This document shows, piece after piece, positions 940-34,164 of a stretch of 64,000 bases of DNA. The DNA lies in assembly GCF_017873555.1 (NCBI RefSeq), contig NZ_JAGGKE010000010.1:1-64000 (forward strand), read 5' to 3'. Within the stretch, counting starts at the first letter, position 1, and each line of letters begins with the position of its first letter. Source of the stretch: Halorubrum trapanicum (lineage in GTDB: Archaea; Halobacteriota; Halobacteria; Halobacteriales; Haloferacaceae). A model generated the notes under the pieces. The model did no database searches and was not told where the DNA came from. It saw only the letters and a list, made by a program, of their open reading frames with translations. Position numbers and translations under genes: made by a program.

Positions 940-1158
940 ATGGACGTGACCGTCGAGGTCGTCGGCGAGGGGACCGAGGAGTACAGCCTCGCCGCCGACG
1001 CGACGTACGACGACGTGATCCGCGCCGCGGGCTACCACCCGCAGGAGGCGTCGGCGCTGGTCGACGGCTCGCCGGTCCCGGGCGACCGCGTCGTCGACGC
1101 CGAGCGGGTCCGGGTCCTCCGACTGATAAAGGGCGGCGCGACGGACGGCGACGCGTGA
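940..1158 (+). CDS. samp2: Ubiquitin-like small archaeal modifier protein SAMP2
   Basis: This 72-residue beta-grasp protein resembles haloarchaeal SAMP2. It starts MDVTVEVVGEG and has the family ending RVLRLIKGG near residues 58-66. SAMP2 is adenylated by the E1-like enzyme UbaA, then acts as a sulfur carrier for tRNA thiolation or is conjugated to lysines of target proteins. UbaA is encoded at 33352 in this window. In described SAMP2 the diglycine is the C terminus; here six residues (ATDGDA) follow it, so the diglycine is masked and processing may be needed. The stop codon overlaps the GTG start of the acetyltransferase gene downstream, so the two are probably co-transcribed. The ATG at 940 gives the usual SAMP N terminus. 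Confidence 0.88.
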   Translation: MDVTVEVVGEGTEEYSLAADATYDDVIRAAGYHPQEASALVDGSPVPGDRVVDAERVRVLRLIKGGATDGDA

Positions 1159-1604
1159 CCGAAGAACACGACCGCCCGGTCCCGCCCGAGGACGTGACCG
1201 TCGAGCAGGCTCTCCCCGACGACCGCCTCGATATCTTGCGAATCCTCGACGCCGCGATGCTGGAGACGGACGCGGCGACCGTCGACGACCGGATGGCCGC
1301 CGGCGACGCGCTCGTCGCGCGCTCGACCCGGACCGGCGGGGTCGTCGGCGCGCTCGTCGCCGTGCGGCCTGACTCCGGGCGGCTCCACGTCGACGCCGTC
1401 GCGGTCCGGCGCGCGCGACGCGGTCGGGGGATCGGCTCCGCGCTCGTCGCGGCCGCGGTTGACCGGGCCGAGTCGGACCCCGCGGTCGGGGTCGTTTCCG
1501 CGGCGTTCGACGCCGACCTGATCGGATTCTACGCGGCGCTGGGGTTCGCGCTCGACGCCGCGAGCGCGGGCGAGGCGCGACGCGTCGGCCGCCGTCCGGC
1601 GTAA
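1155..1604 (+). CDS. GNAT family N-acetyltransferase
   Basis: The 149-residue protein has the GNAT fold, with the acetyl-CoA pyrophosphate-binding motif RRARRGRGIGSAL at about residues 85-97. A C-terminal FYAALGF segment is typical of the last GNAT helix and strand. The substrate cannot be predicted. The GTG start overlaps the SAMP2 stop (GTGA), which suggests translational coupling, and GTG is the only start that gives a complete domain. Because SAMP2 chemistry depends on lysines and alpha-amines, a functional link is conceivable but unproven. Confidence 0.85.
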   Translation: MTEEHDRPVPPEDVTVEQALPDDRLDILRILDAAMLETDAATVDDRMAAGDALVARSTRTGGVVGALVAVRPDSGRLHVDAVAVRRARRGRGIGSALVAAAVDRAESDPAVGVVSAAFDADLIGFYAALGFALDAASAGEARRVGRRPA

Positions 1605-3377: not shown

Positions 3378-3503
3378 GTCGGGCGTCCGATCGATCCCTC
3401 TCTCCGTCCGTTCCTCGGCCGCATCCGAACGCCTTCGCGGCCGCTATCAGCCGGGATAATTCGACTCTGGATCTTATGTACCCCCGTGGGTGAGTTGCGA
3501 CAA

Positions 3504-6032
3504 ATGGACGGCGATGATGCGAGCAACCGGTCCGATCGGGATCCCGTCGACGGGGACCGTTCGGCGGCATCGACCGACGCGGATGCGACCACCGACGGGG
3601 ACGCGACCACCGACGGCGGCGTCGCGTCCGACGAGACGACGGCGGCCTCCCGCGCCAGCGCGGGCGACGACGTTCCCGTCTCGGCGTTCCGCGAGGTCGC
3701 GGAACGGCTGGCCGACGGCGACCTCGGGGCGCGGTTCCCGGCCGAGGAGACCGACGGCGAGGCGGCGGCGCTCGCGGCGACGCTCAACGAGTTCGTCGAC
3801 GGGGTCGCGGAGACGGTGTCCGCGGTCGACGGCTTCGGCGACGAGGTCGCGGGCGCGACCGAACACGTCCGGTCGAACGTCGACCGCGCGAAGGCGCAGA
3901 GCGACGAGGTGTACGCCGCGGTCGACGACATCGAGGCGGCCGCGACCCGCCAGCGCGACGACATCGCGGCCGCGACGAGCGAGCTTCAGACCGTCTCGGC
4001 GGCCACCGAGGAGGTCGCCGCCTCCGCGGATCAGGTGGCCGATACCGCGGCCGGCGTCGCCGAGCGGACCGACGAGGGGACCGACGCCGCGACGGCCGCT
4101 ATCGAAGAGCTCCGCATCGTCGACGAGCGGACGGCGGAGGCGCTCGACCGCGTCGAGGCGCTCGAATCGGAGGTCGCGGCGATCGAGGACGTCACCGACC
4201 TGATCCAGGACATCGCCGACGAGACGAACATCCTCGCGCTCAACGCCTCGATCGAGGCTGCCCGCGCGGGCGAGGCCGGCGCCGGCTTCGAGGTGGTCGC
4301 CGAGGAGGTCAAGAGCCTCGCGGAGGAGGCCCGGGACGCGACCAGCGAGATCGAGTCGTCGATCCGGTCGGTCCGCGCGGAGACGGACGCGACCGTCGAC
4401 GAGATGGCCGAGATGCGCGAGCGCGCCGACGAGGGGATAACCACCGCCGAGGAGGCGCTGGAGGCGTTCACCGACCTCGCCGCCGACGTCGAGGAGACGA
4501 CCAGCGGCGTCGCGGAGATCCGCGACGCCACCGACGACCAGGCGACCTCGATCGAGGCGGTGGTCGACGCGGTCGAGTCGATCGGCGACCTCGCCGAGGA
4601 GACGGCCGCGGACGCGGGCGACGCCACCGCGGTCGCGCACGCGCAGAAGACGTCGCTGACCGAGGTGGCCGCCGGCGCGTCGACGCTCGCCGACCGGACC
4701 GGGACCCTCGACGACGCGCTCGACGCGTACGACGCCGACGGCACCGACGACGACGACGCCGTCGTCCTCGACTTCTGGCACGCGCTCGGCGGGCGCAAGG
4801 CGCGGCTCCTCGACGAGTTCGCGGCCGAGTTCGCCGCCGAGACGGACGGGATCGCCGTCCGCCCCGCGTCGAAGGGGAGCTACCGCGGCGTGTTCGAGGC
4901 GACGCTCGCGGCGGCGGACCGGGGCGACCCGCCGGCGATCTCCCACCTCTACGAGATCGGGACCCAGCGCGCGCTCGACAGCGGGGCGTTCACGCCCGTC
5001 GAGCGCCTCCTCGACGCGGACGCGGGCGGCGTCGCCGACACCGTCGCCGCGAGCGGCCCGGGTTCGGACTTCTCCCCGGACGACCTGCTCGCGCCCGTCG
5101 CCAACTACTACCGGACCGACGGGGTCCTCCACTCGATGCCGTTCAACGCGTCGACCCCCGTGCTGTACTACGACCGCGCGGCGTTCGAGCGCGCCGGGCT
5201 GGACCCCGACGACCCGCCCGAGACGTTCGACGAGGTCCGTCGGTGCGCCGAGCGGCTCGTCGAGAGCGGCGCGACCGAGACCGGGATCACGTTCGCGACG
5301 TACTCGTGGTTCGTCGAGCAGTGGTTCGCCGAGGCCGGCGAGCCGCTCGTCGACGCCGACAACGGGCGGGGCGGCACCCCGACCGAGAGCCGGTTCGACG
5401 GGCCGGTCGGCGAGCGGGTCTACCGCTGGATCGCCGACATGGCGGCCGACGACCTCTACCACGACCCCGGGATCGAGGCCCGCGGGCAGGCCCGCGAGGC
5501 GTTCCACGAGGGCCGCGCCGGGATGCTCATCGGCTCTACCTCCGCGATGGTCGACGTCCGGGAGGGCGCCTCGTTCCCGGTCGGGGTCGGCTACTTCCCG
5601 GTCGCCGACGAGCGGCACGGCGTCGTCGTCGGCGGCGGGTCGCTGTGGGTCGCGGACGGGGCGTCGACCGCCGAGCAGCGCGCCGCCGCGGCGTTCCTCG
5701 GTTGGCTCGCGGCGCCGGAGCAGCAGGCGCGCTGGCACCGCGAGACCGGCTACTTCCCGGTCCACGAGGGCGCGGTCGACCGCCTCGACCGGAACGGCTG
5801 GTTCGACGAGAACCCCGGCTACCGCACCGCCGTGAACCAGCTGCTCGACGCCGAGGACACCGTCGCCACGACCGGCGCCCGGATCGGCCCGTTCGACACG
5901 GTCCGGACGCTCGTCGCCGAGGCGTCCGTCGACGCCCGCGAACACGGGGTCGACGCCGCGGTCGAACGGCTCGCCGACAGCACCGCCCTCCAGCTCGAAC
6001 GGTACGCGGAAGAGCGCGCCGACCACTCGTAG
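3504..6032 (+). CDS. Soluble methyl-accepting transducer fused to a UgpB-like solute-binding domain
   Basis: The 842-residue protein has an acidic N terminus and a HAMP-like segment ending [11 protein letters not shown] (about 50-90). A long coiled-coil MCP signalling domain follows, whose hairpin tip [19 protein letters not shown] lies at about 238-256. From about residue 420 there is a type 1 extracellular solute-binding protein fold, starting [11 protein letters not shown] and carrying GYFPV and [15 protein letters not shown] segments like sn-glycerol-3-phosphate binding proteins. No signal peptide, lipobox or membrane segment is visible, so the whole protein should be cytoplasmic. It would signal to CheA/CheW in response to an intracellular ligand. 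The ATG at 3504 is preferred over a GTG at 3486. The fusion order, transducer first and binding domain last, is unusual. Confidence 0.85.
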
Positions 6033-33351: not shown

Positions 33352-34164
33352 ATGAGTCTCTCCCTCGACGCGACCCAACTCGACCGCTACTCCAGACACG
33401 TCATCCTGGACGACGTCGGTCCCGAGGGGCAGAAGCGACTGCTCGACGGCCGCGTCCTCGTCGTGGGCGCGGGCGGACTCGGGTCGCCCGCGATCCAGTA
33501 CCTCGCGGCCGCGGGCGTCGGGGCGATCGGGATCGTCGACGACGACGCCGTCGAGCGCTCGAACCTCCAGCGACAGGTGATCCACGGTGACGACGACGTG
33601 GGGCGCAAGAAGGTCGACTCGGCCGCGGAGTTCGTCGCCGAACTCAACCCCGACGTCGACGTCGAGCGACACGAGGTCCGGCTCGACGCGGGCAACGCCC
33701 GCGAGCTGATCGCCGACTACGACGTGGTCGTCGACTGCTCGGACAACTTCGCCACCCGGTACGTGGTGAACGACGCGGCTCGAATCGAGGCGGTTCCCGT
33801 CTCGCACGGCGCCATCTACAAGTTCGAGGGACAGGTGACGACGCTCTCGCCCGACGGTCCCTGCTACCGCTGTCTGTTCCCGGAGCCGCCGGAGCCGGGA
33901 ACGGTCCCGGACTGCGCCAGCACGGGCGTCCTCGGCGTCCTGCCGGGGACGGTCGGCTGCCTCCAGGCGACGGAGGCGGTGAAGCTGCTCATCGACGCCG
34001 GCGAACCGCTGGTCGGTCGCATGCTGTTTTACGACGCGATGGACCTCTCCTTCGAGACGGTGCCGTACGCGCGCAACCCGGACTGTCCGGTGTGCGGCGA
34101 CGACGGTATCGACACCATCGACGGGATCGACTACGCTGCCGGCTGTCAGATCGACGCGGCCTGA
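33352..34164 (+). CDS. ubaA: SAMP-activating E1-like enzyme UbaA (MoeB/ThiF family)
   Basis: The 270-residue protein adenylates the C terminus of SAMPs for conjugation and for sulfur transfer in tRNA thiolation and molybdopterin synthesis. The ATP-binding loop VLVVGAGGLGSPAIQYLA is near residue 37, with the catalytic R in RSNLQRQVIH. DCSDNFATRYVVND is near 129. The active-site cysteine lies in VPDCASTGVLGVLPG (about 188). Zinc ligands are CYRC and CPVCGDDG. It ends without a rhodanese domain. Its substrate SAMP2 is encoded at 940. Confidence 0.93.
   Translation: MSLSLDATQLDRYSRHVILDDVGPEGQKRLLDGRVLVVGAGGLGSPAIQYLAAAGVGAIGIVDDDAVERSNLQRQVIHGDDDVGRKKVDSAAEFVAELNPDVDVERHEVRLDAGNARELIADYDVVVDCSDNFATRYVVNDAARIEAVPVSHGAIYKFEGQVTTLSPDGPCYRCLFPEPPEPGTVPDCASTGVLGVLPGTVGCLQATEAVKLLIDAGEPLVGRMLFYDAMDLSFETVPYARNPDCPVCGDDGIDTIDGIDYAAGCQIDAA

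Follow-up and report, generated by a model that had tools for sequence, protein, structure and literature searches.

A masked diglycine in SAMP2 of Halorubrum and its likely maturation by JAMM1

JAMM1 is known for removing SAMPs from their targets, and to our knowledge all work on this was done in Haloferax volcanii. The SAMP2 of that species (HVO_0202) ends at its diglycine and has no need of maturation. Together with UbaA and NcsA it is needed for thiolated tRNA-Lys(UUU) (PMC4048286), a modification that requires a free SAMP2 C-terminus. HvJAMM1 cuts a linear SAMP1-MoaE fusion exactly after the last glycine in vitro; in vivo the fusion is cut only with jamm1 and the diglycine present, and it does not function without HvJAMM1 (PMC4443979). 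In Caldiarchaeum subterraneum, CsJAMM cuts two SAMP precursors (PMC6043591).

The window analyzed here is a stretch of 64,000 nucleotides from Halorubrum trapanicum (assembly GCF_017873555.1, contig NZ_JAGGKE010000010.1, positions 1 to 64,000). Near its start lies a SAMP2 gene whose frame, by direct reading, runs through MDVTVEVVGEGTEEYSLAADATYDDVIRAAGYHPQEASALVDGSPVPGDRVVDAERVRVLRLIKGG and then through ATDGDA before a TGA stop. The features of the locus are:

940-1158, + strand: SAMP2 open reading frame, 72 codons by direct reading, starting MDVTVEVV and ending VRVLRLIKGG ATDGDA
940..1137, + strand: SAMP2 core, 66 codons with the diglycine at the end (Pfam PF21965, NCBIfam NF041919), a predicted beta-grasp
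1132..1137, + strand: diglycine, G65 at 1132-1134 and G66 at 1135-1137, with the predicted cleavage site after 1137
1138..1155, + strand: C-terminal tail ATDGDA by direct reading, which masks the diglycine; variable and predicted to be disordered
1156-1158, + strand: SAMP2 stop codon, TGA
1155..1604, + strand: GNAT acetyltransferase (Pfam Acetyltransf_1, 5e-11), its GTG start sharing GTGA with the stop of SAMP2; some relatives have it as an in-frame SAMP2 fusion

The protein matches the Pfam SAMP2 family over residues 1-63 (6e-28; 97.4 against a cut-off of 27) and the NCBIfam SAMP2 equivalog over residues 1-66, where the match stops (102.2 bits against a cut-off of 70). Its best PDB matches are the solved SAMP2 structures 2l32 and 4hrs (sequence match to 2l32 at 1.4e-18). 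An AlphaFold2 model has the order E-E-H-E-E, with a mean pLDDT of 88 and, for most of residues 1-63, values above 90. The diglycine and the tail have no order in the model (pLDDT below 50 for the tail) and are predicted to be flexible on a well-folded beta-grasp. The first-pass annotation had read a SAMP2 match through LIKGG followed by ATDGDA, with the extension ending in the overlap with the acetyltransferase start, and this description was right in every detail. Since six extra codons stand between the diglycine and the stop, we class the frame as a precursor form and not as mature-form SAMP2. The gene is single copy, and a search of this genome for a second SAMP2 ending at the diglycine found none.

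Every one of the 31 SAMP2 loci that we read from sampled Halorubrum genomes has residues after an invariant diglycine. Short tails of 2-21 residues account for 30 of these, and one (L035) is an in-frame fusion to the downstream GNAT. The tails differ from genome to genome (ATDGGA, TGAGDSP, AGGLP, STDGGSANGESVDGTSAESNA, SNDHLEAEG, HR and others). A separate collection of 25 loci (L039-L063), mostly from named Halorubrum species (H. sodomense, xinjiangense, distributum, tebenquichense, californiense, ezzemoulense, coriense, rubrum and others), has residues after the diglycine in every case. Among them is a second GNAT fusion (L058, from the uncultured archaeon A07HR67), and the 48-1-W fusion recurs (L060, the same as L035). 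The first-pass annotation had suggested aligning SAMP2 from related species, and had named a sequencing error or extension-free close relatives as grounds for giving up the idea. The loci read show the opposite: the masked diglycine is real and genus-wide. As the loci of both collections are all tailed or fused, a sequencing error, or an oddity of the strain, is ruled out as the source of the tail.

Of the 392 genomes of the order, 386 have a SAMP2. Among those with a C-terminus that could be assigned, SAMP2 is tailed or fused in 103 genomes from 24 genera (91 calls from sequence reading and 12 from the search table) and stops at the diglycine in 211. The 91 proteins read comprise 63 short tails, 57 of them distinct, and 28 fusions in which a whole folded domain follows the diglycine. 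Some fusions are to a peroxiredoxin-like domain (for example L077 and L100, with Pfam AhpC-TSA at 1e-16 to 1e-17 beside SAMP2 in one chain) and others to GNAT (L035/L060, L058, L082, L086, L088, L091 and L092; Pfam finds both domains in one chain in L060 and L082). We also observed that the first residue after the diglycine is serine or alanine in 62 of the 91 loci, possibly a P1' preference of a protease.

None of the 91 tailed or fused proteins has lost the diglycine, and both of its positions use all four glycine codons. We computed pN/pS over ten Halorubrum genes whose tails are six residues long: RLIKGG gives 0.01, the tail 2.5 and residues 1-60 give 0.38. The regions are short, so these values carry meaning only as a contrast, which is one of extreme purifying selection on the buried RLIKGG against drift in the tail. 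A buried and unused diglycine would not be conserved in this way, and we read the pattern as a putative cleavage site with a weakly constrained spacer behind it. An invariant internal diglycine with a variable extension is what is looked for in a precursor of a ubiquitin-like protein (Ubl), as is a processing protease in the same genome. Two JAMM proteins are encoded in this genome, one of which is the following.

G000:C9:66063-66503: JAMM1 (desampylase), NCBIfam NF041370 at 160.4 against a cut-off of 130 and Prok-JAB at 76.6 against 25

By sequence reading, JAMM1 has the JAMM metal and catalytic signature (Glu, HxHP, S-x-x-D) in KEVCGVLAG ... HSHPTGPAAPSETD, with the glutamate upstream. Its PDB matches include Pyrococcus JAMM1 in 5lda, an entry that also has a SAMP2 chain. 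Called by homology at E <= 1e-3, JAMM1 occurs in 279 of the 392 genomes of the order. It is present in 103 of 103 genomes with a tailed or fused SAMP2 versus 136 of 211 with SAMP2 ending at the diglycine (Fisher p = 5e-16; 4e-12 without Halorubrum), counts that were copied by hand into the association script and may hold small errors. None of the 75 JAMM1-negative genomes has a tail; each SAMP2 sequence read from them stops exactly at the diglycine. The association is correlational and the genomes are related, which makes the genus-level figures the fair ones (p = 1.2e-4 with genera as units, p = 2.8e-4 when genera are compared only within their family). With JAMM2 near universal (in 321 of 327 genomes, and in every one of the 287 good ones), the association is with JAMM1, and JAMM2 was set aside as the protease behind the pattern. 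The earlier proposal that a JAMM-type enzyme might unmask the diglycine is supported as likely, since tails and fusions occur only in JAMM1-positive genomes.

The genome retains the rest of the pathway alongside the tailed SAMP2. An NcsA-type thiolation enzyme (TIGR00269) is on the same contig as SAMP2 and UbaA, and both MoaD-type SAMPs are masked as well.

33352..34164, + strand, within the window: UbaA, NCBIfam NF047750 (SAMP-activating enzyme E1), 518 against a cut-off of 450
G000:C9:30501-30782, - strand: SAMP1 orthologue (L119/L122), ending GG-GVGR
G000:C2:10037-10672, - strand: second MoaD-type SAMP, fused (L118/L152), its partner ending KAMRAGG

We call these two proteins SAMP1 and SAMP3 by resemblance; in NCBIfam both score as SAMP1. 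In 26 of 30 Halorubrum loci the SAMP1 orthologue (L119/L122, L123-L149) has 3-8 residues after the diglycine, and in four it stops there. Of the 30 Halorubrum loci for the second MoaD-type SAMP, 22 carry 1-3 residues beyond the diglycine and 8 are fusions, that of this genome among them (L118/L152, L153-L159). KAMRAGG ends the fused partner here and ends a separate downstream gene in the other 22. Since the partner itself ends in a diglycine, one chain holds two proteins of this kind. The partner may be a TBP-like GG protein (arCOG06308), which PMC2948915 places beside MoaD-type Ubls. Two further observations concern the SAMP genes. A conserved stretch, ATCGGTCGTTTCAAACG, follows the stop of many Halorubrum SAMP1 orthologues and is perhaps a promoter or terminator element. 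The frame L120 (G000:C7:74272-74541, - strand) has a ThiS-family match and ends YPFMFCC, which fits the double-cysteine Ubl-like group reported from Halobacteria in the same paper. In the window we also noted by eye an 848-residue frame (3486-6032, + strand) in which a methyl-accepting chemotaxis domain seems to share one chain with an extracellular-type sugar-binding domain, and a PIN-domain-like protein (1606-2094, - strand) adjoining a small antitoxin-like protein (about 2094-2387, - strand), a VapBC-like pair.

We propose that SAMP2 is made as a precursor and that JAMM1 cuts it after the diglycine, and we give this reading a probability of roughly 0.8. The SAMP2 of this Halorubrum would be translated as pro-SAMP2. 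JAMM1 would cut the peptide bond after Gly66 and free what follows it: ATDGDA here, and in other genomes either a few residues or a whole peroxiredoxin-like or GNAT domain. UbaA could adenylate the exposed glycine only after this cleavage, and SAMP2 would then serve protein conjugation and, with NcsA, tRNA thiolation. Our data show the tail, its distribution, the conserved diglycine, the link with JAMM1 and the presence of UbaA and NcsA; both the cleavage and its agent we infer from published work on close enzymes, HvJAMM1 and CsJAMM. In the open-access literature HvJAMM1 was found to be reported on the linear SAMP1 fusion, and no report of its cutting a linear SAMP2 tail was found. The notion that SAMPs and their operon neighbors (peroxiredoxin-like and GNAT for SAMP2, the diglycine-ending protein for the MoaD-type SAMP) form ubiquitin-type polyproteins with JAMM1 as general maturase, which would make nearly the whole Halorubrum SAMP supply dependent on JAMM1 and tie modifier output to that of the partner, seems to us evenly poised between right and wrong.

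The gene junction bears on where the tail comes from. The samp2-(prx)-gnat operon is conserved, with the peroxiredoxin gene present or absent. L206 has the un-fused form of the peroxiredoxin type: SAMP2 ends GG-AV and its stop overlaps the start of a separate prx gene. From this arrangement we consider that the tail likely originated when the stop behind the diglycine was lost where the downstream gene follows closely; it would persist only where JAMM1 is present, and its sequence is probably neutral. The first-pass annotation had raised the overlap as a competing explanation; it is probably the origin of the tail instead. The overlap accounts for where the tail ends (of the 30 short-tailed Halorubrum loci, 29 have a stop that shares GTGA with the start of the following gene) but not for why it is tolerated, as prx or gnat also lies directly behind samp2 in JAMM1-negative genomes whose SAMP2 stops at the diglycine. 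Overlap alone therefore does not yield tails and was rejected as a sufficient cause. It is quite improbable, then, that the tail is a mere by-product of the overlap, with the JAMM1 association due to shared ancestry, even though the one-residue tails of the second MoaD-type SAMP likewise arise from ATGA overlaps. A GGATGA overlap exists without a tail (L038), SAMP1 tails occur without gene overlap, the association holds when genera are counted within families, and a masked C-terminus would still need exposure for UbaA.

Trimming to the diglycine by something other than JAMM1, be it a carboxypeptidase, the proteasome or JAMM2, would suit tails that are mostly short, flexible and varied, and JAMM2 is present everywhere. 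We nevertheless consider it unlikely: exopeptidases could not neatly remove the whole folded domain that 28 of 91 proteins carry, and JAMM1-negative genomes keep JAMM2 and presumably other peptidases, yet are without a single tailed SAMP2 gene. A tailed or fused SAMP2 might also go unmatured and act as a non-covalent ubiquitin-like domain while other SAMPs conjugate and thiolate. In the fusions the Ubl does sit N-terminal to an enzyme, the arrangement of many eukaryotic Ubl-domain proteins. A non-conjugating domain would, however, need neither the diglycine kept throughout nor an RLIKGG nearly free of amino-acid change. With SAMP2 in single copy, the other SAMPs of the genus mostly masked too, and UbaA and NcsA retained, we regard this as highly improbable. 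All three alternatives are weaker than maturation by JAMM1.

If maturation by JAMM1 is true, then in Halorubrum and 23 further sampled genera the enzyme has another task that comes first, that of making the modifier usable, as deubiquitinases do for ubiquitin. A clean genetic test would be feasible in a culturable haloarchaeon, natural SAMP2-enzyme fusions would be available as substrates, and annotation or proteomics that presumes a C-terminal diglycine would misread the tailed species.

Compared with known systems, the Halorubrum protein is of the same family as H. volcanii SAMP2 (over the Pfam and NCBIfam cut-offs, with the same E1, UbaA, and the structures 2l32 and 4hrs) but has six further residues. 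The first-pass annotation had stated that described SAMP2 proteins end at the diglycine. This stands for H. volcanii, whereas tailed SAMP precursors were already described in Caldiarchaeum, where SAMP and CsUb precursors have residues after the diglycine and are cut there by CsJAMM and CsRpn11, respectively (PMC6043591). Caldiarchaeum belongs to a distant archaeal phylum, its precursors are not haloarchaeal SAMP2, and neither fused enzyme domains nor a co-occurrence survey are reported in that work. SAMP1-MoaE is similar in that a Ubl is joined through its diglycine to a downstream protein and freed by HvJAMM1 (PMC4443979). It differs in pairing a MoaD-type Ubl with MoaE, and the H. volcanii fusion was engineered, natural archaeal Ubl-MoaE fusions being reported only from Crenarchaeota; in Halorubrum and its relatives a ThiS-type SAMP2 is followed by a short tail, a peroxiredoxin-like domain or GNAT. 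In its accessible text, the survey of Makarova and Koonin (PMC2948915) reports GNAT as a genomic neighbor of this Ubl family in Halobacteria and peroxiredoxins near Ubl genes in Thermococcales, and no SAMP2 fusion to either. Tailed Ubl precursors and Ubl fusions freed by JAMM proteases are thus already known. Our search of the open-access literature found no report of tailed SAMP2 in haloarchaea, tailed Halorubrum SAMPs, SAMP2-GNAT or SAMP2-peroxiredoxin fusions, or JAMM1 dependence, although earlier mention elsewhere is possible. As far as that literature shows, what is new is the extent of tailing in haloarchaea, the strict association with JAMM1 and the natural fusions of SAMP2 to peroxiredoxin and GNAT. 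A parallel in eukaryotes is the ubiquitin precursor, a ribosomal protein fusion or a single-residue or short extension, which likewise has an invariant diglycine, a variable extension and release by a deubiquitinase (compare PMC4522658). Those precursors are processed by cysteine deubiquitinases, whereas for haloarchaeal SAMP2 we propose a JAMM-type metalloprotease.
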